Source: Patulibacter sp. (lineage in GTDB: Bacteria; Actinomycetota; Thermoleophilia; Solirubrobacterales; Solirubrobacteraceae). Taken from it: DNA of 43,713 bases. The notes under the pieces were generated by a model. The model was not told the origin of the DNA. It saw only the letters and a program-made list of their open reading frames with translations, and did no database searches. Below, one piece after another: positions 4,373-34,740 of this stretch (position 1 is the first letter of the stretch; each line of letters begins with the position of its first letter). A program made the position numbers and the translations under genes. The stretch lies in contig JADMKN010000024.1 of NCBI GenBank assembly GCA_015478825.1, forward strand, positions 1 through 43,713, in the 5' to 3' direction.

Positions 4373-4662
4373 CCGTCATCGACCCCGACGACGAGAAGCA
4401 CTTCCCGCACGGCTTCCCGATCGAGCTCGACTTCCTCGTCGACCAGTTCGTGTGGGTGCGCGACCACGTGCGGCGCCGCGTGGTCTCCGCGGACGGTCGC
4501 TTCTGGACCGACGAGGACGGCATCGAGCTGGACCTGACGGCGATCGACCGCGTGATCGTCGGCGGCAGCCAGCTCAACGTTGAGCATGCGATGCAGATCC
4601 TCGACCAGCCGCAGAACGCCGAGTACTGCGACTACCGCGCGATGAACGGCGGGTACTGCTGA
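4369..4662 (+). CDS. hypothetical protein
   Basis: 4-nt overlap with upstream gene; MTVIDPDDEKHFPHGFPIELDFLVDQFVWVRDHVRRRVV... Confidence 0.6.
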   Translation: MTVIDPDDEKHFPHGFPIELDFLVDQFVWVRDHVRRRVVSADGRFWTDEDGIELDLTAIDRVIVGGSQLNVEHAMQILDQPQNAEYCDYRAMNGGYC

Positions 4663-5045
4663 TGCCCCGCACGATCAAGCGCCACGCCGCGGACGGCACT
4701 CTGACCGAGCAGGCGTGGCAGCACCAGGTCATCGGTATCGCCCGCCTGGGCGGCTGGCGGCGCATCTACCACGCCCCGCACGGCGGCCGCTCAGGCCGTG
4801 CCGCCTACGGCCAGATTCCCGAAGGGACCGGCTTCCCGGACCTCCTGCTGATCCGCGTGCGGACCGACGGCACCGCCGACATCCTCGTCGCCGAGCTGAA
4901 GACCCAGCGCGGCAAGCTCGGCAAGCAGCAGCCCGAATGGCTAAAGGCGTTCATGGCTGCCGGGATCGAAGCCTACGTCTGGCGGCCTGACGACCTCGAC
5001 CAGGTCACCCAGCGGCTCACCGGCAACCGAAAGGCGGCTGCGTGA
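4662..5045 (+). CDS. VRR-NUC domain nuclease
   Basis: YHAPHGGRSGRAAYGQIPEGTGFPDLLLI...ILVAELKTQRGKLGKQQPEWLKAFMAAGIEAYVWRPDD: typical VRR-NUC layout (GFPDLLL / AELK / Q..WL). Confidence 0.85.
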   Translation: MPRTIKRHAADGTLTEQAWQHQVIGIARLGGWRRIYHAPHGGRSGRAAYGQIPEGTGFPDLLLIRVRTDGTADILVAELKTQRGKLGKQQPEWLKAFMAAGIEAYVWRPDDLDQVTQRLTGNRKAAA

Positions 5046-6235
5046 GCTCGACCGTGTCACAGGGCCGCCTGGTGCGCGACGGACGGCGTCTGCCGTTCTT
5101 CGTCGTTACAAAGGCCGCGACCGCGGTGATCCGCCACTCCTTCGACGCGAAGAGGCGCACGACGGCGCTAGCGATCTACGCCACCCTGGTCGAGCAGGCC
5201 AACGACGAGGGATCCGACACCTTCGAGGCGGCGCGCGGTCGGATCGCCGCCGCAGCGGGCGTCCACGCGTCGACACTGACCCGGTTCGCGAACCTCCTTG
5301 AGGAGGCCGGGCTCCTAACGATCCAGCGCCGCAAAGCGGGCTCGGCGAACCTGCCGAACCTCTGGACGCTCGCCGACCCGCCCCTCCTCGCCTCAGACGA
5401 TGAGGGGTCGCCTGGCGCTACCCCTCCTCGCCTCAGACGAGGACCCTCCTCGCCTGAGAGCACGGACCTCCTCGCCTCAGACGAGGACCCCTCCTCGCCT
5501 CAGACGAGGGTGTTTAAAGAACCGTCGGAAGAACAAGAACCAGCAGCTAACGCTGCTGCCGCGAGCGCGGACGCGCCCGACGGCAGCAACGACGCCGCTG
5601 GCAGCAGCAGCAAGAACGACGAGAAGATCCGGGAGCACTGGGGGAACGTCACCGCCTACCTCAAGGCCTACGGCTTCGACCGCGCCACGCTCATCGAAGC
5701 CGCACCCCGCCTCAAGGCGCTCTGCCGGCGCCGCGTCAACGACCTCGCCGACATCGACTGGCCCGGCGTCACCGCGCTCATGCTCGACGCCAAGGGCACC
5801 CCGGCGCTCTACGCCGACCAGCCCGCCGGCGTGCTGGCCTGGGCGCTCGGCCAGCGCGGCGCCGAAGCGAAGCGCTCCACGGCCGCCGCAGCCCCACCGA
5901 ACATCAAACCGCCCGCCGGTGCCGCCCCGAAGATCGTGGTCGACCCCGACAGCGAGATCGTGCTCGCCTGGGACCGCGTCCTCCAGGACGCTCGGAAGCA
6001 CATCGACGGCGACGCCTGGGACACCTGGCTGTCGGTGATCGTGCCCGTCGACGTCAGCGAAGGCGAGCTTCGCATCGCCGTGCCGTCTCACGCCAGGTCG
6101 TGGATCGACCACGGCCTGTCCCCGCTACTCGCGGCATCCACCACCCGGGTCATCGACAAGCACGTCACCAAGGTGCGGATCCTGCCGCGCGACCAAGTCA
6201 TCCTCAGCGACCAGCAGACCGAGTCCTCGGCATGA
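5042..6235 (+). CDS. phage replication initiator: N-terminal winged-helix-like, C-terminal DnaA domain-I-like
   Basis: N-terminal AAAAGVHASTLTRFANLLEEAGLLTIQRR helix-turn-helix; C-terminal IVLAWDRVLQDARKHIDGDAWDTWLSVIVPVDVSEGELRIAVPSHARSWIDHGLSPLL resembles the DnaA N-terminal domain. Confidence 0.75.
   Translation: MSSTVSQGRLVRDGRRLPFFVVTKAATAVIRHSFDAKRRTTALAIYATLVEQANDEGSDTFEAARGRIAAAAGVHASTLTRFANLLEEAGLLTIQRRKAGSANLPNLWTLADPPLLASDDEGSPGATPPRLRRGPSSPESTDLLASDEDPSSPQTRVFKEPSEEQEPAANAAAASADAPDGSNDAAGSSSKNDEKIREHWGNVTAYLKAYGFDRATLIEAAPRLKALCRRRVNDLADIDWPGVTALMLDAKGTPALYADQPAGVLAWALGQRGAEAKRSTAAAAPPNIKPPAGAAPKIVVDPDSEIVLAWDRVLQDARKHIDGDAWDTWLSVIVPVDVSEGELRIAVPSHARSWIDHGLSPLLAASTTRVIDKHVTKVRILPRDQVILSDQQTESSA
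5384..5510 (+). repeat. iteron array (five copies of CTCCTCGCCTCAGACGAGG-type repeat), candidate replication origin
   Basis: Core CTCCTCGCCT at 5384, 5424, 5446, 5468 and 5491 (spacing 40, 22, 22, 23); most copies continue CAGACGA(GG). AT-richer stretch TGTTTAAAGAA begins at 5511. Confidence 0.8.
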
Positions 6236-10323: not shown

Positions 10324-11895
10324 GTGACCGCGACGGCCGTGGAGCAGCCGCGGCTAGAGCCGGGCACCGTTGAGCACTTCAAGGCGTTCTGCTCCCGCCT
10401 GACGCTACCGCCGAAGGCGTCGGTCAAGAAGAAGCGCCGCCGTCGCCGGCGCGGCGCCGACTGCGAGACCGCGGTCCCGGGTCCGTCGGCCGCGCACCAG
10501 TCGCGCTCACGCCGGCCGGCCGCGCAGCGGCTGATCATCGAGCCATTCCAGGAGGTCGCGCTCGAGGACTACTTCGACGGCATCGCGGAGACCTTCGTGA
10601 TGCTGCCGAAAGGCAATGCAAAGTCGATGCTCGCCGCGGCACTGGGCATCTACCACCTCTGCTTCGTCGACGAGGCCGAAGCGTTCATCTTCGCGGCGTC
10701 GCGCGACCAGGCGGCCCGCCTCCTGAAGTACGCCGCGGGCTTCGTGCGCCGCTCGCCGGTGCTGCAGAAGCACCTGATCCTTCGGCTGGGCTCCCGCGAG
10801 ATCCGCGCCCGCCGCGACGGCGGGTCGCTCAAGGTTCTCGCCGCGGATCCGGACACCGCCGACGGCATCGCGCCGACCCTCGTCATCTGCGATGAGCTGC
10901 ACCGCTGGAAGACGCTCGAGCCGTACGTGCTCGCCAAGGAGGGCCTCGGCAAGCGCGACGGCCAGCTGATCGGCATCTCGACCGCGGGAGAGGACAAGAA
11001 CAGCGAGTTCGGCCGGATGCGGACCGAGGCGCTGAAGCACATCGTCGAGCAGCTCGGTGCCTACAAGTGCGCGCTCGCACCGTCCGACGAGTTCATCTGG
11101 CACGAGTGGTCGCTCAGCGAAACCGACGACCTGACCGACATGGAGCTCGTCAAGTCGGCGAACCCCCTCGCGCAGATCACCGTCGAGTCGCTCCGCGAGC
11201 GCTACCTCTCGCCAGGCACCCGCCGCGCGTGGTGGGCACGCTTTGTGTGCGGAATCTGGACCCGCGACGACGACGCCGCGATCTCCGCGATGGAGTGGGC
11301 GCCCAACCAGGTCGACCACTGCGAGATCCCAGACGACGCGCTGAACGTGATGATCGGCGTCGACCTCGGCTGGCGACGCGACACCACGGCGATCGTCCCC
11401 GTCTGGATGATGAACACCAAGCCGCTAACGGTCCGCGTCGACCGACGGCTCGCGATCGAGACACCGCCCGGAGAAGGCAAGTCGCTCGCCGAGGACATCG
11501 TCTGGGCGCACCTCGAGGAAATGGCCGAGCGCTGGCCGAACGCGAAGTTCGTATTCGACCCCAACGCCAACGCCGGCCACCTCATCGAGCGAATCGAGAC
11601 CGAGCTGCAGCGCGAGGTGATCATCCAGGCGCAGGACCCGGCGCCGATGGCCCAGGCCGCGGGCCTGGTCATGGAGCTGGTCCGCAACAAGCGGCTCGAG
11701 CACCCCGGCGTTGTCGAGTACTCGTCGCAGATCCTGGCCGCCTACCTGCGGTCCGTCGGCGGCGAGAAGTACCGCTTCGACAAGGGGCCCGGCGGCAGCC
11801 ACATGGACGCCGCGATCGCGACCGCCCAGGCGGTCCGCCAGCTGCACGTATTGGCGACCGCCCCCCCACCAATCCGACCGTACGTCATCTCCTAG
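10324..11895 (+). CDS. terL: terminase large subunit
   Basis: FVMLPKGNAKSMLAAALGIYHL (Walker A-like), TLVICDELHRW (Walker B), DLGWRRDTTAIVPVW (nuclease), GSHMDAAIATAQAV. Confidence 0.9.
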   Translation: MTATAVEQPRLEPGTVEHFKAFCSRLTLPPKASVKKKRRRRRRGADCETAVPGPSAAHQSRSRRPAAQRLIIEPFQEVALEDYFDGIAETFVMLPKGNAKSMLAAALGIYHLCFVDEAEAFIFAASRDQAARLLKYAAGFVRRSPVLQKHLILRLGSREIRARRDGGSLKVLAADPDTADGIAPTLVICDELHRWKTLEPYVLAKEGLGKRDGQLIGISTAGEDKNSEFGRMRTEALKHIVEQLGAYKCALAPSDEFIWHEWSLSETDDLTDMELVKSANPLAQITVESLRERYLSPGTRRAWWARFVCGIWTRDDDAAISAMEWAPNQVDHCEIPDDALNVMIGVDLGWRRDTTAIVPVWMMNTKPLTVRVDRRLAIETPPGEGKSLAEDIVWAHLEEMAERWPNAKFVFDPNANAGHLIERIETELQREVIIQAQDPAPMAQAAGLVMELVRNKRLEHPGVVEYSSQILAAYLRSVGGEKYRFDKGPGGSHMDAAIATAQAVRQLHVLATAPPPIRPYVIS

Positions 11896-11903
11896 GAGGA
11901 ACC

Positions 11904-12320
11904 ATGGAAACCACCATCACCACCGTCGTGCTCGCCGTCATCGTCGTGCTGCTCCTGTGGCGCCTGACCGCGACCGAGCGTGCGGCAACCGAGGCCGCCG
12001 CCGAGCGCGAACGCAGCCATGTCGCGGAGGTCGAAGACGACCTCGCCCGGATCGCTCGGATCGAAGAGCTGGAGACGGACATCGCCGACCTCACCGCGGG
12101 CCCGCTGATCCACAAGCGCGTGATCGCGTCGCTCACCGGCGACGAGGGCGGCATCGACGGAATTCTGACCGACTGGCGGGGCGAATGGGTCCGCTTCGAG
12201 AGCGTGAGATTCATCGGCGGCAAGGGGCAGGTCGAGCCCGTCGACGGTGCCGTGTACGTGCAGCGGACCAAGATCCTGACGTTGCACGACCCGCCGGCGG
12301 CGTCGGTCGAGGCCGAGTAG
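11904..12320 (+). CDS. membrane-anchored hypothetical protein
   Basis: Strong SD AGGAGG just upstream of ATG; N-terminal TM TTVVLAVIVVLLLWRLT followed by a coiled-coil-like segment. Confidence 0.7.
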   Translation: METTITTVVLAVIVVLLLWRLTATERAATEAAAERERSHVAEVEDDLARIARIEELETDIADLTAGPLIHKRVIASLTGDEGGIDGILTDWRGEWVRFESVRFIGGKGQVEPVDGAVYVQRTKILTLHDPPAASVEAE

Positions 12321-12321
12321 C

Positions 12322-12338
12322 GGCCAGTCCGACAGGGC
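12322..12338 (+). repeat. dispersed 17-bp motif GGCCAGTCCGACAGGGC, copy 1
   Basis: Exact copy starting 1 nt after a TAG stop codon; same motif at 13704, 18438 and 31179. Confidence 0.85.
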
Positions 12339-12389
12339 GCGCGTCGCCCGCGCCCGGCCGCGTCGACGCGCGGTCCGCACCGTGGCGAC

Positions 12390-13697
12390 ATGGCGGTCTT
12401 CGGCGGTAGCGGTGGGGCGTACGTCTGGGCGGACGGGTCGACGCAGTCGATGGCCCGCCCGTCGATGGCGATCGGGGAGATCGCCGCCAGCGTCACGCTG
12501 ATCGGTGACCGGCCGATCAGCTACGACCGGATCTATCGCACCCAGCCGTGGGTCGCGGCGGCTGTGCACCTGCTGCAGCGCCAGGTCGCGCGACTGCCGA
12601 TCGGCACGTTCATCCCGACCGGCGACGGGGAGAGCTACAACCGCAGGCGGACCAAGGATCACGGGTTCGCGAGCCTGCTTTCGACCCCGGCCGACGGCCG
12701 GGCGCCGGTGGACCTGAAGGCCGAGATCATGCTCGACCTCGCGGTGCAGGGAAACCACCTCGAGCGGATCGTCCGCCGGACCGGCAGCCAAGAGCCGATC
12801 GGCCTGGAGAAGATCGACTGGCGCTCGGTGATGCCTGCCCTGTCCACGGACGGGATGCACGTGCTGGCATGGCGCGTAACCCCGATCGGCGGCGGGGCGA
12901 CCGAGGTCCTGATGCCGGAGGACGTCATCCACTTCCGGTGGCCGTCGCCGTCCGGGCCGATCGGCGTCTCGCCGCTGCAGCAGCTCGGCGTCACGATCCG
13001 CTCCGAGGACGGAGCGCAGCGCTACGCCGACTCGGCGATGCGCCACGGCGGCATGCGTGGCGTCGCGGTGCGGGTCGATAAGGAGTTCGCGCAGGACACC
13101 GTCCTGCACGACACGCTCCGCGAGGAGATCCTCCACAAGCACAGCGGGCCCGACCGCGCGCACGTCCCCTACATCATGGGCGGCGTCGAGGCGGTCGAGG
13201 AGATGCCGACGCAGTCGGCCGTCGAGGTTGAGCTGATCAAGCTGCGGCAGGTCAACCGCGAGGAGATCGCCGCCGTCTACGGGGTGCCGCCTGTCCTGAT
13301 CGGCGACCTGTCGCACGCGACCTACTCGAACGTCGAGAAGATGCACGAGATGCTCTACCTCACGGTCCTCGGACCGTGGCTGACGCTGATCGAGGAGCAG
13401 ATCGCAGCGCAGCTGGTCGCGCGCTACCTGCCGTGGCAGCTCGAGGGCGTGTGGTGCGAATGGTCGCTCGACGCCGTCATGAAGGGCGACGTCAAGGGCC
13501 GAATGGAGAGCTACCTCATCGGCCTGCGCGCCGGCGCGCTCACCATCAACGACATCCGCCGGCGCGAGAACCTCCCGCCGTTCAAGAACCCGCTCGCCGA
13601 CGAGCCGCTGATCCAGACGAACAACGTCTCGCCGCTCAGCACGATCGGCAACGACACCGAGGGCGAGCCGGCGTCGAAGGTTCCGGCCGCCGCGTAG
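12390..13697 (+). CDS. phage portal protein (HK97 family)
   Basis: RTQPWVAAAVHLLQRQVARLPIGTF, VIHFRWPSPSGPIGVSPLQQLG, VNREEIAAVYGVPPVLIGDLSHATYSNVEKMHEMLY. Confidence 0.93.
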   Translation: MAVFGGSGGAYVWADGSTQSMARPSMAIGEIAASVTLIGDRPISYDRIYRTQPWVAAAVHLLQRQVARLPIGTFIPTGDGESYNRRRTKDHGFASLLSTPADGRAPVDLKAEIMLDLAVQGNHLERIVRRTGSQEPIGLEKIDWRSVMPALSTDGMHVLAWRVTPIGGGATEVLMPEDVIHFRWPSPSGPIGVSPLQQLGVTIRSEDGAQRYADSAMRHGGMRGVAVRVDKEFAQDTVLHDTLREEILHKHSGPDRAHVPYIMGGVEAVEEMPTQSAVEVELIKLRQVNREEIAAVYGVPPVLIGDLSHATYSNVEKMHEMLYLTVLGPWLTLIEEQIAAQLVARYLPWQLEGVWCEWSLDAVMKGDVKGRMESYLIGLRAGALTINDIRRRENLPPFKNPLADEPLIQTNNVSPLSTIGNDTEGEPASKVPAAA

Positions 13698-13703
13698 CAC
13701 TGC

Positions 13704-13720
13704 GGCCAGTCCGACAGGGC
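13704..13720 (+). repeat. dispersed 17-bp motif GGCCAGTCCGACAGGGC, copy 2
   Basis: Exact copy starting 6 nt after the portal stop codon. Confidence 0.85.
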
Positions 13721-13751
13721 TACAGCGCGGCGATTCCTAGAGCGCCGGGCG

Positions 13752-14501
13752 GTGCCGCGCACGGTGGGCTGCGTGAAGCGCCAGCTCATAGGCACCGAGG
13801 AGCACAAGACCGCCGACCTGGCGCAGCTCACCGTCAAGACCGACGACGGCGCGCCCGGCCGATTCCAGGCACTCGCTGCGGTCTACGGAAACATCGACAG
13901 CCACGGCGACCGGATGGTCCGCGGCTGCTTCGAGGTGTCCCTCAAGGAGCGCGGATTCCCAAAGCTCGTCTGGTCGCACGATCGGCTCATTCCGCCGATC
14001 GGGATCGTCGAAGCCGCCGAGGAGGTCGACGCGGGCCTCCTGATCGACGGTCGCCTGTTCGTCGACAAGGACGCAGGGGAGGACCACCCGATCGCCCGCC
14101 AGGTCTGGGCCGCGATGTCCACCAAGGGCGGCGACGGGCGCCCGGGACTAGGCGACTTCTCGTTCGGTGCCCGGGTCCAGGCGGCGACGCTCGTCGAGGT
14201 CGACCCGGCAACCCTGCCCGACGATCTCCAGTGGACCGGCGGGCGGATCCGCGAGATCACCCGCTGCCGCCTCTGGGAGATCGGCCCCTGCCTGGTCGGC
14301 GCCAATGAGCAGGCCGGCCTCCTCACCGTCAAGTCGCTCGTCGACGCCCTCGGCGTCACGCCCGAGCAGGCCGCCGCCGCCCTCGAGCGGCGCGACGTCG
14401 GCCCCACCAAGACCTCCAGCCGCGGCGAGGTCGCGGACCGGACGCACGCCACGCGGCTCGCCGAGCTGCGGATCAAGCACCCCATCCCCAGCGAGGACTG
14501 A
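13752..14501 (+). CDS. HK97-type prohead protease
   Basis: FQALAAVYGNIDSHGDRMVRGCFEVSLKERGFPKLVWSHDRLIPPIGIVEAAEE, EITRCRLWEIGPCLVGANEQAGLL; alternative GTG start at 13773. Confidence 0.88.
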   Translation: MPRTVGCVKRQLIGTEEHKTADLAQLTVKTDDGAPGRFQALAAVYGNIDSHGDRMVRGCFEVSLKERGFPKLVWSHDRLIPPIGIVEAAEEVDAGLLIDGRLFVDKDAGEDHPIARQVWAAMSTKGGDGRPGLGDFSFGARVQAATLVEVDPATLPDDLQWTGGRIREITRCRLWEIGPCLVGANEQAGLLTVKSLVDALGVTPEQAAAALERRDVGPTKTSSRGEVADRTHATRLAELRIKHPIPSED

Positions 14502-14502
14502 G

Positions 14503-15918
14503 ATGAAGACCAAGACCCAGGAGGCCCAGGCGGCGATCGCGAAGCTCCGCGCCGACAAGAAGGCCGCCGACAAGAGGGCCGCCGACGCGCGCCTGGCCTT
14601 CGAGAAGTCGGATGCCGACCCGCTCGACCCGGAGACGCCGGAGTTCCAGGCGTTCGACGAGGCGAGCAAGACCGCCGACGAGCTCGGCGAGTCGCTGCGC
14701 AAGTCCACCGAGATGTACGCCCGCCTTTCGGGCGGCAGCTCGCAGCCGGGCCCCGGTCCGGACCCGGAGGACCCCGCCAACAAGATGCGGGGCGACAACT
14801 TCCTGGACCAGGCGGTCGAGGCCCTGAAGTCCGCGTCGGTAGGTCGCAAGGTCCTCGAGAGCGAGGCGACCAAGGCGCTGCTCGAGAAGGGCATCTTGAC
14901 CGGCCAGGCGCAGTTCGGTGCGCTCGAGCTCGGCAAGGCCTACTCGCGAGACGAGGTCAAGGCACTCGTCGGCACCGGCAACACCGCCAGCGGCGTGTCG
15001 AACCTGCTGACGCCCGACCGACTGCCGCTCGTCGACCTGGTGCCCAGCCGCCCGCCGCGGATGGTCGACCTGGTTTCGAAGGGGACCACGGACTCGAAGT
15101 CGATCGAGTACCCGGTCCTGATCCAGCGCGGCATGGCGGCCGGGTACGTCCCGGACCCGACGACCGCCGCGGCGATCGGCTCCGGTGACCCGGAGGTCAC
15201 CCCGGAGCAGGCCGGACGCAAGCCCGAGACGTCGCTCGTGTGGGACATCCGCTCGGCGACCGTCAAGACGCTCGCCACCTGGATCCCCGTCCACCGCAAC
15301 ATGATGGACGACGCGCCATACCTGCAGTCGATGATCGACGCGTACCTGCGCGACGAGCTCGAGCAGCGCATCGACCAGGACATCGCGACCGGCACCGGCG
15401 CCGGCGAGTCGTTCAAGGGGCTGCTGAACACCGACGGGATCGGTGCGGTCACCTACGGCGACGGGTCGATCATCGACTCCGCACACCGCGCGATGACCAC
15501 GGTGCGGCTGCAGTACGAGGAGCCGACCGCCTACGTCATCCACCCGACGACGTGGGAGACCATCCGGCTGCTGCGTGCCAGCCAGGTGATGGTCGACCCG
15601 GGAGACCCGAACGCCGAGCCGCCCGTGCTGCCCACGATGGAGCCGTCCGGCGAGTACCTGTTCGGCCGTCCGTCGCAGGCCGGCGAGGCGACGCTCTGGG
15701 GCAAGACGGTCGTCACGACCGCCGCGATCCCGCAGGGCACCATCCTGACCGGCGACTTTGCCAAGGCGATGCTCTGGTTCCGGACCGGCGTCCGGGTCCT
15801 CGCCAGCGACAGCCACGAGGACTTCTTCACGCGCAACCTCGTCGCGCTGCTCGCCGAGCTGCGCGCCGCATTCGGCGTGATCAAGCCGCTCGCGTTCGCC
15901 AAGGCGACCGCCTCTTGA
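14503..15918 (+). CDS. major capsid protein (HK97 fold)
   Basis: N-terminal helical delta-like domain, then VDLVPSRPPRMVDLVSKGTTDSKSIEYPVL, IPVHRNMMDDAPYLQSMIDAYLRDELEQRIDQDIATGTG, HPTTWETIRLLRASQVM. Confidence 0.93.
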   Translation: MKTKTQEAQAAIAKLRADKKAADKRAADARLAFEKSDADPLDPETPEFQAFDEASKTADELGESLRKSTEMYARLSGGSSQPGPGPDPEDPANKMRGDNFLDQAVEALKSASVGRKVLESEATKALLEKGILTGQAQFGALELGKAYSRDEVKALVGTGNTASGVSNLLTPDRLPLVDLVPSRPPRMVDLVSKGTTDSKSIEYPVLIQRGMAAGYVPDPTTAAAIGSGDPEVTPEQAGRKPETSLVWDIRSATVKTLATWIPVHRNMMDDAPYLQSMIDAYLRDELEQRIDQDIATGTGAGESFKGLLNTDGIGAVTYGDGSIIDSAHRAMTTVRLQYEEPTAYVIHPTTWETIRLLRASQVMVDPGDPNAEPPVLPTMEPSGEYLFGRPSQAGEATLWGKTVVTTAAIPQGTILTGDFAKAMLWFRTGVRVLASDSHEDFFTRNLVALLAELRAAFGVIKPLAFAKATAS

Positions 15919-15924
15919 GTCACG

Positions 15925-15949
15925 GGCGCGCGCCACCACGGCGCGCGCC
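15925..15949 (+). terminator. strong hairpin downstream of major capsid gene
   Basis: GGCGCGCGCC-ACCAC-GGCGCGCGCC: perfect 10-bp stem, 5-nt loop, no U-tract. Confidence 0.55.
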
Positions 15950-15973
15950 GTCCCCTCGATCGAAAGGCACCCG

Positions 15974-16663
15974 ATGGCCCTCGTTACCGCCAACGACAAG
16001 TACACGCTGGTCAAGGCCCCGAAGACGGGCCTCTACTACCACCCCGGCACCGAGCACCAGGCCTGGTACTCGCAGGGTGCGCTCATGCCACCCGAGTACA
16101 AGCCGGTCAAGACCGCGGGCGCCACCGACGTCGTCGACCAGGACGCCGCGCGCCTGCAACAGCTCATCGCCGCTGAGGCCGACGAGCGCGAGCGCCTGCA
16201 AAAGGAGCTCGACGAGCAGCGCGAGAAGACCGAGACGGAGGCGGCCCAGCGCAAGAGTGTCGAGGAGGCGCTCGAGGCGCTGCGCAAGGAGCCCAAGGTC
16301 GCCGAGGACGCCGACGAGCGCGAGCGCCTGCAAAAGGAGCTCGACGAGCAGCGCGAGAAGACCGAGACGGAGGCGGCCCAGCGCAAGAGTGTCGAGGAGG
16401 CGCTCGAGGCGCTGCGCAAGGAGCCCAAGGTCGCCGAGGACGCCGACGAGCGCGAGCGCCTGCAAAAGGAGCTCGACGAGGCGCGCGCCACCATCGCCGC
16501 ACTGCAGGCCGGCAGCGACGACGGCGCCGAGGCCGATGCGGGGGCGGGCGGCGACGATCAGACCGCGACCGCGACCGCCGAGGGCGAGAGCCCGGCACCG
16601 GCTACCCCGGCCGGGACCACGCCGCGGGCGCGGCGGAAGGGCCGGGGTGCCAATCAGTCCTGA
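15974..16663 (+). CDS. virion-associated coiled-coil protein with internal tandem repeat
   Basis: Small N-terminal region YYHPGTEHQAWYSQGALMPPEYKPVK, then repeated charged coiled coil; RBS-like GAAAGGCACCCG before ATG. Confidence 0.75.
   Translation: MALVTANDKYTLVKAPKTGLYYHPGTEHQAWYSQGALMPPEYKPVKTAGATDVVDQDAARLQQLIAAEADERERLQKELDEQREKTETEAAQRKSVEEALEALRKEPKVAEDADERERLQKELDEQREKTETEAAQRKSVEEALEALRKEPKVAEDADERERLQKELDEARATIAALQAGSDDGAEADAGAGGDDQTATATAEGESPAPATPAGTTPRARRKGRGANQS
16178..16480 (+). repeat. 132-bp exact tandem repeat, about 2.3 copies
   Basis: GCCGACGAGCGCGAGCGCCTGCAAAAGGAGCTC... starts at 16178, 16310 and 16442; first two units identical across 132 nt, third identical for 39 nt. 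Confidence 0.95.
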
Positions 16664-17216
16664 CGAGCCTGACGCCGTCGGCCCCGAGGGCCGGCGGCTC
16701 TGCACCCGCGACGAGCTCGTCGAGTTTGTCCGGGTGAAGGACGGCCCCGTCGCCGGCGAGGTGCTCGACCGGCTGATCAATAGTGCCAGCGAGCGCCTGA
16801 ACGCCGTGCGGCAGTTCTACGCGTCGACCGGCACCCGCACCTTCCAGGTCGACGGGCGGATGACCCGCCTGTCCGACCTCGACATCTCCCACGAGTGCAC
16901 GGTCCTCGCCGACGGCGTCGAGCTCACCGCCGCCGACCTGCGCTGGCTGCATCGGATGAACCATCCCGCGCACGCCGTCGTGCTCTACCGCGACGTCGGC
17001 ACCCTCACCGTGACCGGCCACTGGGGCTGGCCCGAGATCCCCGACGGGATCCGCACGGCGTGCCTTGAGTGGGCCAGCCGCGCCTACTTCCAACGTCAGT
17101 CACGGCAGGCCGACGTCGTGATGAACCACGAGACCGGAGTCGAAGACCGCTACTTCGTCCGGATGCCGTCCAGCGTCGGCGCTGCGCTCGTGCCCTACCG
17201 CCTGCTCGGAATATGA
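16647..17216 (+). CDS. head-tail connector / adaptor protein
   Basis: GTG at 16647; LCTRDELVEFVRVKDGPVAGEVLDRLINSASERLNAVRQFYASTGTRTFQVDG...; position after capsid. Confidence 0.65.
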   Translation: MPISPDEPDAVGPEGRRLCTRDELVEFVRVKDGPVAGEVLDRLINSASERLNAVRQFYASTGTRTFQVDGRMTRLSDLDISHECTVLADGVELTAADLRWLHRMNHPAHAVVLYRDVGTLTVTGHWGWPEIPDGIRTACLEWASRAYFQRQSRQADVVMNHETGVEDRYFVRMPSSVGAALVPYRLLGI

Positions 17217-17764
17217 CCGAGCTGATCCTCCGCACCGACGGGCCACGGTCGTGGCACCCCGAGGTCATCGTCGAGGCCGCCCGCCAGGCGGTGCACCACG
17301 TCGAGCCCGTTCTCCGCGCCGCGGCTCGCGAGCAGGCCGATCGAACCCGGACGCTCATCCACAGTCGCAGCGGCGAGCTGGCGCGCTCCGTCCGCGGTCA
17401 GGTCCGCCGCCGGCGGCGAGGCTACGTACTCCGGGTCGGCTCGTTCGGTCGCGGCAACTTCACCGTGCGCAACGGCGGGGCCCGCCGGCAGGAGTCCGGC
17501 TACCAGCTATTCCACGGCTACTTCGTCGAGCACGGCACCGGCGAGCAGGGCCCGCTCGCCCGAAGGATCCCCGATGACCGTCGCGGGCTCGTCCCGACGC
17601 GCGGTGGCCGCCGTCGCCCGACCGGGGCGGGCCAGGCGCCGCAGCGGCCGTTCAGTCGCGCCCGCGATGCGTACGACCGCGGGCCGTCGCACCAGCTTGA
17701 CCGGATGGTTCACGACCTGGTCGACCGCGAGATCGTGACCGCCGTTCGAAGGGCGTCGCGATGA
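17213..17764 (+). CDS. head closure / HK97 gp10-like protein
   Basis: AAREQADRTRTLIHSRSGELARSVRGQVRRRRRGYVLRVGS...YQLFHGYFVEHGTG; position between connector and tail terminator. Confidence 0.6.
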   Translation: MTELILRTDGPRSWHPEVIVEAARQAVHHVEPVLRAAAREQADRTRTLIHSRSGELARSVRGQVRRRRRGYVLRVGSFGRGNFTVRNGGARRQESGYQLFHGYFVEHGTGEQGPLARRIPDDRRGLVPTRGGRRRPTGAGQAPQRPFSRARDAYDRGPSHQLDRMVHDLVDREIVTAVRRASR

Positions 17765-18243
17765 CGACCTTCCGCGAGATCGCCGAGGCGCTCGTCGACA
17801 TCCTCGAGGAGGTCTCCGTTGCGCTCGTCGACGACGACCATCCCGGCAACCCGGACACCGGCCACTGGCTGAACGTGCATCGCTGGAGCTCCGCTCAGGT
17901 CGGCGCGCTGCCGGCAGCATGGCTTTCGCTGCTGCCCGACAGCCGCGTCGACGAGACCCAGAGCGACGGTTGCACCGTCACCGACGAGCTACGGATCGCG
18001 CTGAAGATCGCGGTCGACCCGTACGCCGACGGCGTTGGCGACGACATGTGGGAGATGGAGCGCGTCGTCGACATCGCGGTTCCGGTCGTCGACCGCGCGA
18101 TGGAACAGGCCCACGACCGCTGGGGGATCTCGCTCGCTCGTCGCACCGACATCCAGTTCGCCAACGAGCAGCTCGGCGCCGGCAACGTGCTCGCGCTCGT
18201 CATCCCCCTCCACATCACCTGGACCCACCCGATCCCCGACTAG
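17761..18243 (+). CDS. tail terminator-like protein
   Basis: MTTFREIAEALVDILEEVSVALVDDDHPGN...; position directly upstream of the tail genes. Confidence 0.55.
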   Translation: MTTFREIAEALVDILEEVSVALVDDDHPGNPDTGHWLNVHRWSSAQVGALPAAWLSLLPDSRVDETQSDGCTVTDELRIALKIAVDPYADGVGDDMWEMERVVDIAVPVVDRAMEQAHDRWGISLARRTDIQFANEQLGAGNVLALVIPLHITWTHPIPD

Positions 18244-18251
18244 GGAGCAGC

Positions 18252-18551
18252 ATGCCCACGCCCCGCAGCAAGACCACCACCCGCAAGCCCGCCGACAAGG
18301 ACGTCGAGCCGGACACGGAGCCCAAGAAGGCCCAGGGATCCGACGCCTATCCCGAGCCGCCCGTCGTTGAGCCGACCGAGCCGCCGGCCGTCGACGCATC
18401 GGACCTGCTCGACATCGAGACCTTGCCGATCCCCGACGGCCAGTCCGACAGGGCGTCTGAGGCGAAGGCCGCGCGCACGATCGCCGAGCAGTCCTACATG
18501 GACAACGAGGCGCGCCGGTCGGCGCGGTCCACCGCGAACCCGGAGAACTGA
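18252..18551 (+). CDS. low-complexity hypothetical protein
   Basis: MPTPRSKTTTRKPADKDVEPDTEPKKAQGSDAYPEPPVVEPTEPPAVDASDLL...; SD GGGAG upstream. Confidence 0.6.
   Translation: MPTPRSKTTTRKPADKDVEPDTEPKKAQGSDAYPEPPVVEPTEPPAVDASDLLDIETLPIPDGQSDRASEAKAARTIAEQSYMDNEARRSARSTANPEN
18438..18454 (+). repeat. dispersed 17-bp motif GGCCAGTCCGACAGGGC, copy 3 (intragenic)
   Basis: Exact copy inside the 18252-18551 CDS (codons GGC CAG TCC GAC AGG GCG). Confidence 0.85.
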
Positions 18552-18553
18552 CC

Positions 18554-19627
18554 ATGGCCCGCTGGCTCGGAATCGCCCCCGACCCCAACAGCAACATCGG
18601 GGGATCGACCTACGACCTCCTGACCGAGAGCGGCCCCATCGAGTGGCCGGACCCCACCGTGTTCCTGCCCGCGACCGATGGCAACAGCGAGCGCAACCAC
18701 GAGGACACCCCCCGCAACGACGAGACGACGCTTGGTCGCGGCGCGCTGCCTCCGGTCTCGTACCGTGCGGATCCCGGCTGGTCGTTCTCGGTGCCGCTCT
18801 ACATGCCCGTCGCGCGGCTCGTGCTGCCGGCCGCCTACGGCAAGGTCGGCACACCGGTCGGCACCGCACCGGCGTCCATCTCGACGCCGCTCTCCCCGGT
18901 CGACTACGGGGCACGCCTGCCGTCGCTGATTATCTGGCTCGTCCGCGACGGGCAGCTCGAGCGTCACGCCGGTGCGTGGATCGAGCAGCTCACGCTCAAC
19001 ACGCAGGGTGCGCGCCCGATGCTGCAGGTGTCCGGCAAGTCGCTGTTCCGCGACGTCGACGATGCCGTCGACCTGCCGACGCCGACCCGGATCTCCGCCA
19101 AGGACACCCTCGCCAGCGTCACGTTCTCCGCCAAGACCGGCGAGGGTTCGGGCACGCCAATCGGGTGCGTCACGACGTTCACGTTGACGCACAACAACAA
19201 CTTCGAGGCGGACGCCGACGCCCGGTTCTGCGCCGGCGAGAACGTCGTGACGGAGCTCGTCGACGGCCGCTACAAGCGCCGCCAGTACCCCGGCCAGCAC
19301 ATCCTGGGCGAGCACACCACGACGGGCACGATCGGGATGGCGAAGCCGCGCGTGGACATCGAGGGCCGCACGCTGCTCGGGACGTCCGAGCGTCTGGTCG
19401 CGTCCCTGTCGGGCAACCCGATCGACGGGGCGACGCCGGCGGCCGACGAGTCGCTCGTGTTCGACATGCCGTCCTGGGTTGTCACCGGCGGTGAGGGTGC
19501 CGGCGCACTGACGAAGACCGGCGCGATCAAGGCGACCTACGACTGGGGCGGATTCGTCGACGAGGAGACCGGCGCGGATCTCACCGTGTCGATCGTCGAC
19601 GAGACCGCGGTCGCGCAGCCCGCCTAG
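18554..19627 (+). CDS. major tail protein
   Basis: MARWLGIAPDPNSNIGGSTYDLLTESGPIEWPDP...ATDGNSERNHEDTPRNDETT...; position upstream of tail chaperone and tape measure. Confidence 0.75.
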   Translation: MARWLGIAPDPNSNIGGSTYDLLTESGPIEWPDPTVFLPATDGNSERNHEDTPRNDETTLGRGALPPVSYRADPGWSFSVPLYMPVARLVLPAAYGKVGTPVGTAPASISTPLSPVDYGARLPSLIIWLVRDGQLERHAGAWIEQLTLNTQGARPMLQVSGKSLFRDVDDAVDLPTPTRISAKDTLASVTFSAKTGEGSGTPIGCVTTFTLTHNNNFEADADARFCAGENVVTELVDGRYKRRQYPGQHILGEHTTTGTIGMAKPRVDIEGRTLLGTSERLVASLSGNPIDGATPAADESLVFDMPSWVVTGGEGAGALTKTGAIKATYDWGGFVDEETGADLTVSIVDETAVAQPA

Positions 19628-19665
19628 CCGACCGACCGCGGACGGAACAGCGCCGACCGCGGAAC

Positions 19666-19695
19666 CTGGCCGCCGTCCACCTGGGCGGCGGCCAG
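19666..19695 (+). terminator. hairpin between major tail protein and tail assembly chaperone
   Basis: CTGGCCGCCG-TCCACCTGGG-CGGCGGCCAG: perfect 10-bp stem, 10-nt loop, no U-tract. Confidence 0.55.
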
Positions 19696-19723
19696 CACGA
19701 CCAGCACGACCTCCAGGGGGATC

Positions 19724-20251
19724 ATGAGCACCAAGAGCACCAAGAAGTACGAGGTATTCGACGCCGACGAACGCGACCTCGAGCGGACGTCCGCCGGGCT
19801 GCGGTTCAACGGCAAGCTGTACCGCCGCGCGCGCCGCAACAACAAGGTGCAGCGCACGATCCGCCGGAAGGGCCGCGATCAGATCCGCCTGCTCGAGGAG
19901 ATCGACGAGGCCCGCAAGATTCCCGAGGTCGACCGGCTCACCGCCAAGCTTGCTGAGACCGAGGACGCGGACGAGATCGCCAAGCTCGAGGTCGAGCTGA
20001 AGGAGGTTCGCGACAGCGTCGACGAGGACCACGTCGACGAGCTGCAGGACCAGTACGAGGATGGCCTCTTCGAGGTGCTCGAGCTGCTGCTGGGCGAGGC
20101 CGAGGACGGCACCCGTCTCACGGCCGCCGACCTGGCCGACCTCGACATCGAGGACGCCGTCGGCCTGTCCAACGAGCTGATGGGGATCAACAAGGCCGAG
20201 GACGAGCAGGCCGCGGCCAACGCGGAGGAGGACGCCGAGGACCCTACCTAG
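19724..20251 (+). CDS. tail assembly chaperone, upstream reading frame
   Basis: Acidic helical protein directly upstream of the tape measure; FNGKLYRRARRNNKVQRTIRRKGRDQIRLLEEIDEARKIPEVDRL. Confidence 0.7.
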   Translation: MSTKSTKKYEVFDADERDLERTSAGLRFNGKLYRRARRNNKVQRTIRRKGRDQIRLLEEIDEARKIPEVDRLTAKLAETEDADEIAKLEVELKEVRDSVDEDHVDELQDQYEDGLFEVLELLLGEAEDGTRLTAADLADLDIEDAVGLSNELMGINKAEDEQAAANAEEDAEDPT

Positions 20252-20283
20252 TCGGCCTGGTCACCCTCCAGCGCTACACGTCG

Positions 20284-20436
20284 ATGACGACCGCCGAGTA
20301 CGACGAGATGGACCCCGCAGAGGTGCCGGGGCGTCTCGCTGCGCTCAACAAGGTGCTGGCGGCGGAGGCCGACGAACGTCTCGAGCACACCAAGCTGCTC
20401 GCCGAGGTCCTGATGCTGGCGGCCCGCCGTGGCTGA
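20284..20436 (+). CDS. tail assembly chaperone, downstream (-1) frame
   Basis: In the -1 frame relative to 19724-20251, open across the upstream stop: PYLVGLVTLQRYTSMTTAEYDEMDPAEVPGRLAALNKVLAAEADERLEHTKLLAEVLMLAARRG*. Start shown is the first ATG; expression is probably by frameshift. Confidence 0.55.
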   Translation: MTTAEYDEMDPAEVPGRLAALNKVLAAEADERLEHTKLLAEVLMLAARRG

Positions 20437-23400
20437 TAGTCGGTCACTGGTTACCCGCCACCTGCAGGAGTGGGTGACCCGCGGCGACGAGAAGCTGCTG
20501 CAGGTCGGCCGCCAGCTCGCGACCGCCGACCGCGCCCGCGAGCGCGAGCAGCGCCGACTGCAAGCCAGCTACCGCCAGCTTGCCGTCGCGGCAAGCACCG
20601 CTGGCCTGCGCGAGACCGCAGCATCGCGTAGTGCCACGACGGCGGCGAAGACGAAGACCGGGTCGATCACGCAACTCTCTGCCGCGCAACAGCGGCTGCA
20701 GCGCGAGGTCCTCGGTGCCGCGCGCGCCCAGCTGACCGAAGAGCGCGCAATGCGCTCCGCTACCCGTGCCGCAGCGCAGTACTCGGCCGCGAAGCAGCGC
20801 CAGGTGGAGTCGTTGGCGAAGGTGACCGCCGCGGCGAACACCTCGAGCGCGGCGCTCAGCCGCAACGCGCGTGCGGGGGCCGCGGCGGCGCGCACCGGAG
20901 GAGGGGGCGCGCTGACCGAGGCGCGCCAGGCCGGGTCACGTGGCATCGGCATCGCGACCGGTGTCGCCGGCGCCGCCGGGGCGGCCGGCATTTTCGGTCT
21001 CGCTGGCCTGGCGCGGGAGGCGATCGACTACGAGCGGCAGATGTCGCAGGTCCAGGCGGTGATGGGAGCCACCCGCCAGGAGATGCGGCAGCTCGACGCG
21101 ATGGCGGTTGACCTGGGCGCCAAGACCGCTTTCAGCGCGTCCGAATCGTCGATGGCCCTCTCCGAGCTCGGCAAGGCCGGCTTCACCGCACAGCAATCGC
21201 TCAAGACGCTGCCGGGGACGATCGACCTTGCCGCGGCGTCAGGCACCGAGCTCGCGGACGCCGCGACGATCCAGAGCGACGCGCTGCGCGGGTTCGGAAT
21301 GGACGTCAGCCAGTCCACGCACGTCGCCGACGTCTTCGCCGTCGCCGTCAACCGGTCCGCGATCGAGATGTCGGACCTGGGCTACACGCTCAAATACATG
21401 GCGCCGATCGCGGCGACCACCGGCCAGAGCTTCGAGGACATGAGCGCGGCCGTCGCGATCCTCGGCAACGTCGGCATCCGTGGCGACACCGCCGGCACCA
21501 CGCTGCGGCGCGTCATGACGAGCCTGGTGAAGCCGACAGCGGCATCCACCGAGGCGCTCGCCGAGCTGGGACTCAAGGCGAAGGACTTGCAGGGCCCTGA
21601 CGGGCTGCTGCCGTTGCCGGACATCATCGCCCGACTGGTCGAGGAAGCATCGAAGCTGCCGAAGGCCGACCAGATGCGGGTGATGACCACCATCTTCGGG
21701 CGGGAGTCGATCAGCGGCACGATGGCGCTCCTGGATCACGGCGCGCCGAAGCTTCGAGCGCTCGCCAAGGAGATGCGCAACGCCGACGGCGCCGCCGACG
21801 ACATGGCGCGCACCATGCAGGACAACGTCTACTACCAGATGGAGCAGGTCCAGGGCGCCGTCGAGTCGCTGGCGCTGACGATCTTCAAGGAGTTCGCGCC
21901 CGGACTGCAGGCCGCTGCCACGAGCGCCGCCGGTTCGATCGAGGTGTGGACCGCCACCGAAGGCAACGTCGAGCGGATCACCGACGCGATCGGCGACTTC
22001 ACCGGCATGCTCGGCGACCTGGTCGCCGCCGGCATGCCGGTCGTTGATCTCGCCGTCTCGATGGTCGACGCATGGCAGGGCCTGCCGGACCCCGTCCGCT
22101 CGTCGGTCCTGCAGTTCGGCGCGCTCGCGCTGATCACCCGGAAGCTCGCCGGCTCCGCGGCCGCCGGCGGCCTGATCTCCGTGTTCGACCGGATCCGCGG
22201 CGGACTGCGCGGAACCGCAGCCGAGGCGACCGCCGCCCAGGCCGCGCTGGGCGGTCTGACCACGCCGATTCCGGCATCCACCGTGTCTGCGACGGCCGCC
22301 GGCGCCCGCACCGCGATGGCGGACGGCGGACCGTCACCGGTCACGTTCGCTGCCCGCGACGCAGCAGACGCCAACCGGGCAGCCGCCACGCGCCAGGGGG
22401 CGCTTGCCACCCGCATGCGGATCGAGGCCCGCGACGCCGCGGCTTCCTACGAGCGGGACATGCGACGCATGGCTGCGATGCCGATGGTCGTCGCGCGCGC
22501 CGAGCAGCAGGCGTCCCTGGCCCGTAACACGTCGGCGCTCGGAGGATCCTCCGCAGCTCGCATCCAGGCGGCCGAGGCGACCGCCGCCGCGGCGCGGAAG
22601 GAGCTGCAAACCCTCGGCACCCGGACCGAGGAGAGTCGCCGCTACGCGCTCGAGCGGCGCGCCGCCGCGACGGCGGCCACCACGGAAGCGCGGGCCACCG
22701 CCCAAACCGCGAGGTTGCTGCGCTCCCAGGCCGGCCACCACGCGCGCATGGACACGGTCGCCGCACCGTCCGCCGGCCGGATCGCCCGCGGACGCGAGGG
22801 ACGCCAGCTCGGCGCGATCGGCACCTGGCAGATGACCCGCGGCCTCGGCGGCACCCGCCGCGACGCGCTCGCCGAGTCCGCGCGTCGCACCGCCGGCCGG
22901 GTCCCCATCCCGTCCGGGCGAGGGATCGCCGGCGTCGCCGCGGCCGGCGGGATCGGCGCTGCGCTCTCCGGCGGCGACGTCGCGTCGGCCGCGATCTCCG
23001 GTGGAGCGGTCGGCATGATGGCCGGCCCCTGGGGTGCTGCTGCCGGCGCGGCCGGCGCGGCCGGGATCACCGCGCTGGTCAACGAGTTCAAGAAGGCGTC
23101 GACGAAGCGCGCCGAAGACGCCGCCCGCGAGTTCGGGGAGCGCATCACCGAGAACACCCGCGACGCCATGGATGCCGGATTCCGGCGGCCGTCAGCTCGC
23201 CGCGTCGGCGAGGCGCGCGCGACCGTGGATGCTGCCGAACAGATCCGCAAGCTGGAGCGCCAGGCCCGCGAGGCCCGCGCGCGTACCCCCGGCGTGGGCG
23301 CGGCCGGCGTCCGCGGTCAGACCAGCGGCGACATCGAGGCTCAACGACTGATCAAGCAGGCGCGCGAACGAGCGAAGACCGCCGGCCTGGACTACGACGC

Positions 23401-26400
23401 GGTAATCCGTCGCGACAGCAACGCCGAACGCGGCGCCATAGCGACGCAGCAGCGCGAGGTTCGCGGTGCGTTTGCGAGTGACGCTCGGCGATACAAGTGG
23501 TTCGACGAGCGGCAGTTGCAGGCTGACGCCAAGAAGCAGCTCGAGGCATTGTCTCCGGCCGCGCGCGATGCCGCCGCGCGGTCGATGGCCGAGTGGGCGC
23601 GGACGATCGAGAAGGACGGCCGGCTCCCGAAGGGCGCGACCGGGCGCCTGGTCATGGAGCTTGGCCGCCTGCCCGGCGACCTGCCGCAGAAATGGGAGCG
23701 CTCCACCCGCGCTGCGGTGGACGCGATCGACAGTCAGGTGGAGGATCGCCGGGTGGTGCGGTCCGCGAAGCGGCTGATGGATGAGCTCGGCCGGCTGTCG
23801 CCGTCGCTCGATATCGAACTCGACACCAAGACCCTGCCCGGCAGCGTCGCCAAGATGCGCACCCAGATGGACACACTGCGCAAGATGGCGACGGACAAGT
23901 CGCTGCCGAAGGAGATGCGGGAGGACGCCGAGCGCCAGCTCCCCGGGGTGAAGAAGGCCTACGACGAGTCGCTCACGCGCATGGCGTGGCGCATGGGCAT
24001 GTCCGAAAAGGACGCGGGCACCTGGGCGCGGCGGGTCTCCCGCGCCGCACGGGAGACCGGTGACAGCGCCGACTCGGTGGACGTCCTTCGCAGGGAGGTA
24101 AAGAAGCTCACCGACGAGATGGGCACCTCCCGCGACCCGGTGAAGCGCCTCGAGGCGGCGTTCCGCGATCTCGGATCCACCGCCGCGCAGGCGAAGAAGC
24201 TGGCCGAGGAGGCGACGAAGGTTCCGCCGCCCGCATCCGGGCCGCTGATCGACGACCGCAACACGTTTGATCTTCCCTCGCTGCCGAAGCCGAAGCCGAA
24301 GCCGAAGCGCACCGGCGGTCCGATCAGGGCGTACGCCCACGGCGGCCCGATCGTTGACACGTTGATGTCGGGCGGCGAGGAGTACCTGCCGCCGGACGTC
24401 GCCTCCCGTTACCCGCCGGGGATCCTCGAGACGATCGCCAACGCGCAGCGCCCGCACTTCTACCGCCACGGCGGGCCGGTGGGCGGTCGCTACAACCTGG
24501 GCGGTCACATCATCCCTGGCCCGTCGGACCGCGACGGCACCTACGTGCCGGCCGAGGAAGGCGGTTTCGTTCTCACCGGGCATGGCCGCGAGCTGCGCGA
24601 CGCGATGATGAACTTCGCGAAGGGCGGGTTCGTCGCGACCGCCTACGGGCCGCCGTGGGGCGGCATTCAGGGCCAGGGCGTTACCAAGACCGGTGTCGAC
24701 CTGAAGTCGGGCCCGAAGCGCTACATCATCGCGGTCGACCCGTCGGTGATCCCGCTGCACACCCGCACCGGAGTGTGGCCCAACCCGTTCGGCTACCGCG
24801 GCAAGTTCGCCGCCGAGGACACGGGCGGCGCGATCAAGGGCAAGCGGATCGACTTCTACGACTGGCGCGGACGCGAGTCCCAGAACAAGTGGGGCCGCCG
24901 GACGGTCAGCGTCGGCACGTCAACGACCCGCGCCGATGGAAGCAAGGCGGCGACGCCCGGCTACTCCTACACGAAGGTCACCGACGACGTGAGGGGCATG
25001 GCCGCGCGCGACGCATATCGGCAGCGCGCCGTTCTGCGGACCCCCAACGTGGACGTGTCCGGCGTGTTCGACCAGGCCCGACAGAACGCCTACGACGCGG
25101 TCGCGCGGTCGCAGATGCTGAGCGAAATCGTCGAGGCGGGCCGCGTCAACATCGAGCGGCGCAAGGTCACCGTGGCCGGCGAGCGCGGACGCAAGGCGGA
25201 CAGCGCCGGCGGCAGTGGTGGCCCCTTGCCGTCACGGTCGAAGGTCGTGGAGGCGGCACGTGATCTGAGGTCTCCGAACCTTCGCGGCGCCAACGCCGGA
25301 ATGGGCGTCTACGGCCGCCTGGGCAAGTACTTCGGCCTGACGATTTCGTCAGGCCGTCGATGGGGCGCGGTCACCAGCTCCGGCAACAAGTCCGCCCACG
25401 GGGACGGCAGTGCGATCGACCAGTCGGGTAGCGCGGCGAACATGCTCCGCTACGCGCGGTGGCTCAGCTCAAGCGGTATCGCGCGCGGAATGGATCAGCT
25501 GATCCACACGCCGCTGGGGCACGGCTGGAACAAGGGGTCGAAGGTGCCGCTGTCGTTCTTCGGTCAAAAGGTCAACGACGACCATTACGACCATACGCAT
25601 GCCGCCGACACCACACCGCCGCGGTTCCGCCGTGGCGGCCCGGTCGGGATTCGCCGCATGGCGACCGGCGGCCGGGTAGGGTCGACGTCGCGGATCGTGC
25701 GCGACACCGGACGCGCGATCAACACGAAGCCGGCCGCGGCGGCGCTGCGGTCGCTGTACGGCGCCGGGGTCCGTGAGCAGCGCCAGGTCACCGACGCACT
25801 CGAGCAGCTGCAGACCCTGCTCGGCGAGGCCAGCAAGGTCAGCGTCGAGCGCCTGGCAGCGCTGAACCGCGAGCTGGTGCGCGGCATCGACCGTACCCGC
25901 GCGAAGCGCTCGCCCGGCGGGACGGCGATCACGCGCGGCGAGGAAGCGCAGAACCGGCGCTCCCGGTCCGTGCTTGCGGAGGTGCAATCCGAGATCCTCA
26001 AGCGGGCCGCGTCACCCGCTCGCCGAGCTGACCAGCTCAGCGTCGCGATCGAGGATCAGCGCGCCATGATCGACCGGTCGATGCGCCGCGCCGACGTGGA
26101 TCCCGAGTCGACCATCGGCCTGCAGCGGATGGGCCGGCAGACCGATTGGGAGAAGGCGCAGCGCGGCGTGCAGCTCGCCCGGCTGGAGCGCGCCCGCGAG
26201 ATCGCCAGGAAGGCGGGGCGGTCGGGCCGCGAAACGGTGCAGGGCCTCGACGAGGAGATCAAGGCGCTCCGTGGCGACATCTCAGAGCTCGCGGTGCAGC
26301 AGGTCGAGAACGCCCGCGCCCAGGTCGCCAGCGCGATCGCCGACATGGAGCGCGCGGTCCAGGGCAGCGTCGACGCCGCCCAGTACCGCGTCGACTACAG

Positions 26401-28497: not shown

Positions 28498-28503
28498 CGG
28501 GCG

Positions 28504-31170: not shown

Positions 31171-31178
31171 AGCGCAGG

Positions 31179-31194
31179 GGCCAGTCCGACAGGG
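31179..31194 (+). repeat. dispersed motif GGCCAGTCCGACAGGG, copy 4 (16 of 17 nt)
   Basis: Exact 16-mer starting 8 nt after the tail-tip stop codon; 17th base is A instead of C. Confidence 0.85.
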
Positions 31195-31286
31195 ATCAGC
31201 GCGTCGCGCCACGCCGCCGCCGCGACGATACAGAGCACGATCGCAGCGTGTTGACTCCGAACCGGCCCCAGAACGGCGCGTCGTGA

Positions 31287-33044: not shown

Positions 33045-33051
33045 CCGCGGA

Positions 33052-33258: not shown

Positions 33259-33267
33259 CTGGGATGA

Positions 33268-34431: not shown

Positions 34432-34451
34432 GGGCGAAATGTAACCGTATA

Positions 34452-34513: not shown

Positions 34514-34521
34514 GCGGGCAG

Positions 34522-34722: not shown

Positions 34723-34740
34723 TCCACATCCAAGAAGGGG

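Follow-up and report, generated by a model that had tools for sequence, protein, structure and literature searches.

An iteron array inside the initiator gene of a Patulibacter prophage: a candidate replication origin coupled to a DnaA domain I tail

The window, by which we mean the whole 43,713-nucleotide (nt) stretch of contig JADMKN010000024.1 from Patulibacter sp. that was analyzed, contains an open reading frame (ORF) for a replication initiator (Table 1). The element that carries this ORF is a prophage in an actinobacterium; genes for a terminase, a portal, a major head protein, an endolysin and an integrase are located 3' of the initiator, and host-type genes are found beyond about 37 kb. 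The product of 397 amino acids (aa) matches PHROG 391 ("replication initiation O-like," E = 4.8e-7) and PHROG 270 ("replication initiation protein," E = 1.2e-4), and the codon-position GC pattern of the ORF is that of a real gene. Its domains are arranged in the order winged helix, low-complexity linker encoded by repeats, middle helical part and DnaA domain I. Here, we analyze the repeat array, which spans codons 115-156, as a candidate origin of replication inside the initiator gene.

Five 24-nt copies of the repeat start at positions 5383, 5423, 5445, 5467 and 5490, with spacings of 40, 22, 22 and 23 base pairs (bp), and a 22-bp unit present four times at 5422-5509 with 83% matches was identified with Tandem Repeats Finder. 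In a first-pass annotation of this DNA, CTCCTCGCCT(CAGACGAGG) had been placed at 5384, 5424, 5446, 5468 and 5491. All five coordinates were right, the last four copies form a 22-bp tandem array, and the copies are read as LLASDD, PRLRRG, SSPES, LLASDE and SSPQTR, as claimed. However, a sixth TCGCCT core within the 40-bp gap had been overlooked. The cores are located at 5388, 5408, 5428, 5450, 5472 and 5495, spaced by 20, 20, 22, 22 and 23 bp, and six sites describe the array better than five. The dyad symmetry that had been ascribed to the copies (CCTCG-N7-CGAGG) is exact in three of them; the copy at 5386 contains one mismatch, and the copy at 5448 has kept the left arm only and is a half-site, which had not been mentioned. 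Allowing for up to three mismatches, the 17-mer has eight matches in the window, as compared to 0.72 expected and with none of 100 shuffles containing as many, and seven of the eight fall inside the array. A search of the host genome and of seven genus mates for the 20-mer with zero or one mismatch yielded no site outside this gene, and the exact iteron was not found in viral contigs.

To score repeats in coding DNA, we took three 20-nt stretches spaced by 19-25 bp and compared their identity to that in shuffles of synonymous codons that preserved both the protein and the codon usage. The window gene scored 16, as compared to a maximum of 12 among 500 shuffles (0/500). The lambda O gene, which served as a positive control, scored 13, as compared to a maximum of 10 (0/500), at codon 116. 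Since the annotated lambda iterons, spaced by 20, 24 and 23 bp, were recovered, the three-copy test is able to detect a genuine origin inside a gene; the window outscores lambda O. We also scanned 147 genes of at least 200 aa from the loci of relatives and from other loci blindly, with the spacing left free at 19-25 bp. The top five genes were initiators that share the winged helix, from the window and from loci L056, L057, L079 and L058, all of which scored highest at 22/22 bp although any spacing in the range was allowed. In only four of the 147 genes (the window, L056, L057 and L058) were none of 200 shuffles as good. The synonymous shuffles and the relatives, which change both sequence and peptide but keep the pitch, show that the repeat-encoded linker is constrained as DNA and not as peptide, as the first-pass annotation had proposed.

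These data bear on the alternative that the linker is unconstrained and that the array arose there by neutral tandem duplication, without any function at the DNA level. Linkers tolerate expansion, the linker of the window is of low complexity, and the four units with 83% matches recovered by Tandem Repeats Finder fit such a history. However, an exact pitch of 22 bp, which shifts the frame, is found in relatives with unrelated repeats and always in the same place, no other gene among the 147 scanned shows a signal of such strength, and the core has been kept at 5408 and 5450 while the flanks have decayed, which makes a neutral duplication scarcely credible.

The AT-richer stretch that had been reported directly after the repeats was confirmed. 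Its minimum 40-bp GC content is 0.42, a value that is reached by 0.01% of the window positions; the 60-bp GC content is 0.517, and at the 50-bp scale the stretch is one of five in the window with a GC content of 0.50 or less. In L056, L058, L079 and lambda, the GC content reaches its lowest value within the gene at or just past the end of the iterons, and the GC low 3' of the repeats in L055 is among the lowest 0.06% of that locus. The order and direction of winged helix, iterons, AT dip and tail are constant in the relatives and in lambda.

Relatives were found solely in Thermoleophilia-type genomes, with none in the phage, plasmid and viral-contig collections, and a profile search with four winged helices yielded loci in genomes labeled Thermoleophilaceae, Solirubrobacterales or Actinomycetes. 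Crp-like regulators from genus mates (L048 and L049) also match the winged helix and were set aside, as they resemble transcription factors of the cAMP-receptor type and not initiators. The first-pass annotation had suggested asking whether homologs keep the peptide rather than the DNA repeat. The peptide was not retained over the repeat: in homologs with winged helices that are 27-30% identical, the 22-bp pitch and the site are the same, while the repeat sequence and the peptide both differ. The distance from the final strand of the winged helix to the first iteron is about 10-40 nt in the window, L055, L056, L057 and L079.

L055, whose winged helix is the closest to that of the window (45%), contains two copies of TCGCCTC at 22-bp spacing and one inverted copy, in the same place and with the same core as in the window, which is what coevolution of head and iteron would predict, whereas the core of more distant relatives differs from that of the window. 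A gene for a DnaC-like AAA+ protein follows the L055 initiator. L056, L057 and L058 are plasmid-like and encode an initiator with two winged helices, DnaB and ParA, along with ParB in L056 and L057 and a conjugation coupling protein in L056; repeats with a 22-bp pitch, unrelated in sequence to those of the window, are located right after the second winged helix. The DnaB gene beside the iteron initiator in L058 is frameshifted too (L058:2179-3560), which indicates that this contig is decayed or poorly assembled. L079 is located near a serine recombinase and contains dyads of the GCCGCA-N3-TGCGGC type at 22 and 23 bp.

Alternatively, the array might be an operator or a partition site, bound by the initiator or by another protein, and act in an early-gene switch or in segregation rather than in the start of replication. 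Operators can be made up of dyad repeats, and the ParB-like gene at 9302-9889 in the window and the ParA and ParB proteins of the plasmid-like relatives would fit this suggestion. But the array is located in the middle of a gene, and no ParA partner for the ParB-like protein was found among the genes identified in the window. Moreover, L055 has the same mid-gene site and AT dip with a DnaC-like neighbor instead of ParAB, and the lambda O control agrees in position and order. We consider a role as operator or partition site very unlikely.

The winged helix itself matches HTH_Crp_2 with an E-value of 0.0012, which is under the Pfam cut-off. An AlphaFold2 (AF2) model based on a 5-row alignment has a mean predicted local distance difference test (pLDDT) score of 70, with helices at residues 24-33, 36-56, 62-72 and 76-88 and strands at residues 92-95 and 107-110. 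The best fold matches in PDB include the N-terminal domains of the RepA_N initiators 4pql, 4pt7 and 5kbj (E = 5.5e-3 to 1.3e-2, template modeling score about 0.5). The link of the N-terminal part to O-like families is remote (PHROG 391, E = 2e-5), and lambda O also matches PHROG 391, chiefly via its C-terminal part. A single-sequence fold of the whole protein was discarded as too poor (pLDDT 45).

Based on sequence comparisons, we consider it quite likely that 5384-5560 is a replication origin of the prophage inside its initiator gene, with a host-DnaA-derived tail that brings in the host DnaB. The winged helix of the initiator would bind the six sites, which at spacings of 20-23 bp are about two helical turns apart, the AT-rich stretch beside the last perfect site would melt, and the C-terminal DnaA domain I would bring in DnaB, the replicative helicase of the host. 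We infer recruitment of the host DnaB because the window encodes no recognizable DnaB or DnaC-like loader.

Several observations weigh against this interpretation. The GC-skew check that had been proposed in the first-pass annotation yielded no switch at 5.4 kb and no origin signal in the window. The model of the winged helix is moderate in confidence, and the E-values of its fold matches are above 1e-3. L055 is below significance in the three-copy test, L079 is marginal in the blind scan (2/200 shuffles as good), and the AT dip of L057 is weaker, at the 3rd percentile of the gene. Furthermore, the three loci L056, L057 and L058 are related to one another and have an iteron core in common, and hence are not fully independent. 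In the single close pair, L058 and L056, the iteron blocks (84/90 and 79/90) are not more conserved than the domains (mostly 83-88/90), but only more so than the linker that follows (71/90).

The C-terminal segment that had been described as similar to DnaA domain I is real, with a match to PF11638 at aa 310-356 that exceeds the cut-off (E = 2.9e-7). In a phylogenetic tree of DnaA domain I, it clusters with the DnaA of the host genome (support 95/88) inside a clade of the host genus (100/99; 97/96 in an earlier, smaller tree), and it is 50% identical to domain I of the host DnaA, which is encoded on contig C211. The tree supports the derivation of the tail from domain I of the chromosomal DnaA in the host genus, and the long branch of the window sequence suggests that the exchange is not recent. 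Among recognizable families, no DnaB_C or IstB/DnaC-like matches were obtained in the window, whereas the relatives that lack the DnaA tail bring their own DnaB (L056, L057 and L058) or DnaC-like AAA+ protein (L055). The chromosomal DnaB gene of the host (G000:C62:2687-4237) is followed by a gene for a DnaC/IstB-like AAA+ protein, and the two are likely to be the loading machinery of the host.

The same internal origin could also work with domain I pairing with domain I of the host DnaA, which then loads the helicase. Domain I of actinomycete DnaA forms a conserved weak dimer (PMC13270200), and the phage domain is most similar to that of its own host. The DnaA box (TTGTCCACA, at most one mismatch) has no match in the window (1-43713), as compared to 2.86 expected, so that DnaA would need a protein contact; this absence is, however, compatible with direct contact to DnaB as well. 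As a rule, phage initiators take the place of DnaA instead of using it. In addition, it is established that DnaA contacts DnaB through its domain I (PMC13270200). Loading via the host DnaA is possible in our view, but on the doubtful side, and we favor a direct contact of the tail with the host DnaB.

A survey with PF11638 of 146 genomes of the host's family identified additional carriers other than DnaA. The initiators in genus g13 have two winged helices, dyad repeats of 66 bp (3 x 22) and a C-terminal DnaA domain I. Six of these (L164-L169) are single open frames, two of which are in a one-contig genome. No synonymous shuffle out of 200 matched the 66-bp repeat in L164, L166 and L168, three of the six; this is weaker evidence than for the 22-bp repeats because 66 is a multiple of three. 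The domain I sequences of the g13 tails form one clade nested within the DnaA of their own genus. Another locus, L043 (G190:C62:10000-24000), encodes at 6140-7303 a DnaA domain I tail of the host-genus type on a third type of N-terminus, which is unrelated and resembles PHROG 2447, with no iterons of 19-25 bp (466/500 shuffles as good). Host-type DnaA domain I tails are thus present in two or more genera, attached to different heads.

The frames for the winged helix and domain I are out of register in three g13 loci, L131, L133 and L134 (G371:C370, G391:C37 and G416:C243), through single-base indels at differing places, which may represent decay, assembly errors or separate products. A C-run/G-run hairpin, CCCCCCCAGCCCCCCTGAAGGGGGG, is conserved between the 66-bp iterons and DnaA domain I in the g13 initiators. 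A programmed frameshift at a C7/G6 hairpin in these initiators was considered and dropped, given that the frame breaks are in different places and that six single-frame members exist. In L043, GGAC/GTCC motifs recur at about 11, 33 and 44 bp past the N-terminal domain. Three separate ORFs with DnaA domain I, of 515-579 aa, were found on C504, C455 (L044) and C90 of G385, a genome of the host genus, which suggests that these are extra copies of DnaA.

Table 1. Features of the initiator gene and its surroundings in the window, and of the hairpin in g13 loci.
Feature	Position	Strand	Basis
Replication-initiator ORF, 397 aa, whose GTG start overlaps the stop codon of the preceding gene	5042..6235	+	PHROG matches
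DNA-binding winged helix, aa 36-112, presumed to bind the iterons	5147..5377	+	HTH_Crp_2, AF2 model, fold matches
Iteron 1, CCTCGCCTCAGACGATG, one mismatch to consensus (right arm)	5386..5402	+	
Degenerate iteron in the 40-bp gap, TCGCCT core (5408) alone kept	5406..5422	+	
Iteron 2, perfect dyad CCTCG-CCTCAGA-CGAGG	5426..5442	+	
Iteron 3, half-site, right arm lost, CCTCGCCTGAGAGCACG	5448..5464	+	
Iteron 4, perfect dyad	5470..5486	+	
Iteron 5, perfect dyad, adjoins AT-rich stretch	5493..5509	+	
AT-rich stretch, candidate unwinding element, GTTTAAAGAACCGTCGGAAGAACAAGAACC	5505..5560	.	GC minimum
Middle helical segment, about aa 190-275	5609..5866	+	Low-confidence single-sequence model
DnaA domain I, aa 310-380, presumed to contact DnaB and/or DnaA of the host	5969..6181	+	PF11638, tree
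VRR-NUC nuclease gene (replication/recombination module), upstream, overlaps initiator ORF	4662..5045	+	PF08774 4.5e-7
Phage context block	10324..36884	+	
Terminase	10324	+	
Portal	12390	+	
Major head protein	14167	+	
Endolysin	31908	+	
Tyrosine integrase	35778-36884	+	
C-run/G-run hairpin of g13 initiators	L131:1759; L134:1133; L133 3944 (reverse); L132 296 (reverse)		

Origins located within initiator genes have been described for lambda (PMC7466680), SPP1 oriL (PMC6316719) and RepA_N plasmids such as pSK41 (PMC5703833). As in lambda O and ori-lambda (PMC7466680), the dyad iterons of the window are internal to the initiator gene and directly follow the DNA-binding domain (codon 116 in lambda, 115 in the window), with pitches of 20, 24 and 23 bp in lambda as compared to 20, 20, 22, 22 and 23 bp in the window, and with AT-rich DNA directly 3' in both. 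The lambda iteron resembles that of the window (CCTCAAAACGAGG and CCTC-AGACGAGG; shuffle p = 0.0065), a similarity that may be due to chance and is not relied on. However, lambda O matches Phage_rep_O (PF04492) at 5.7e-36, whereas no match was obtained for the window ORF at E-values up to 1. The lambda-O-like internal origin that had been suggested at first is thus supported comparatively, by homologs that keep 22-bp iterons in the same place, but not as membership in this family. The tail is also different, being DnaA domain I rather than a C-terminal domain that works with the adjacent loader P, and no P-like (DnaC/IstB-like) loader was matched in the window, unlike in lambda.

The RepA_N initiators, as in pSK41 (PMC5703833), are similar in having a winged-helix head, boxes centrally in the rep gene, an origin-encoded linker and a genus-specific C-terminal domain, the last of which corresponds to the genus clade (100/99) of the window tail. 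Yet the tail of pSK41 is DnaD-like and binds DnaG, and a Pfam scan yielded no match of the window ORF to RepA_N (PF06970). As the initiator matches neither the Phage_rep_O nor the RepA_N sequence definition, it would work like these proteins without being a member of either family by these tests. Among Rickettsia plasmid proteins, the DnaA-like proteins (DALP) are known to combine a C-terminal DnaA_N domain with a variable N-terminus (PMC4316617), but the single DALP gene analyzed, from pRPR of R. peacockii, contains no in-gene iterons of 19-25 bp (154/200 shuffles as good). SPP1, with gp38 and oriL, encodes the loader gp39 and the helicase gp40, neither of which is supplied within the window. 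The chromosomal DnaA of the host contains PF00308 and PF08299, whereas the window ORF matches PF11638 alone, without AAA+ domain III or domain IV. In-gene iterons combined with a DnaA domain I tail were not reported in the searched literature, from which most subscription journals were absent. Judged by sequence, the new part is the DnaA domain I tail akin to that of the host, on an element with no recognizable DnaB or DnaC-like loader.

A broader proposal, which we consider to be evenly balanced, is that mobile elements of the Solirubrobacterales have a modular initiator, in which the winged-helix head coevolves with in-gene iterons of a fixed 22- or 66-bp pitch and a swappable tail that recruits the helicase has been acquired repeatedly from DnaA domain I of the host genus; elements with a DnaA tail would do without a helicase or loader of their own, whereas others bring DnaB or a DnaC-like protein. 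If so, the host range of an element would depend on the DnaA domain I that it has taken up. For the RepA_N-type initiators, it has been stated that the start of replication is unknown and that the tails are genus-specific (PMC7145576). In the prophage initiator, a genus-specific tail is recognizable as the host's own DnaA domain I, so that the question of initiation becomes testable, as does the borrowing of the host replication machine by a phage via a DnaA-like tail. Finally, a 22-bp period directly behind the initiator's winged helix may serve as a purely sequence-based rule for finding origins in little-known actinobacterial phages and plasmids.
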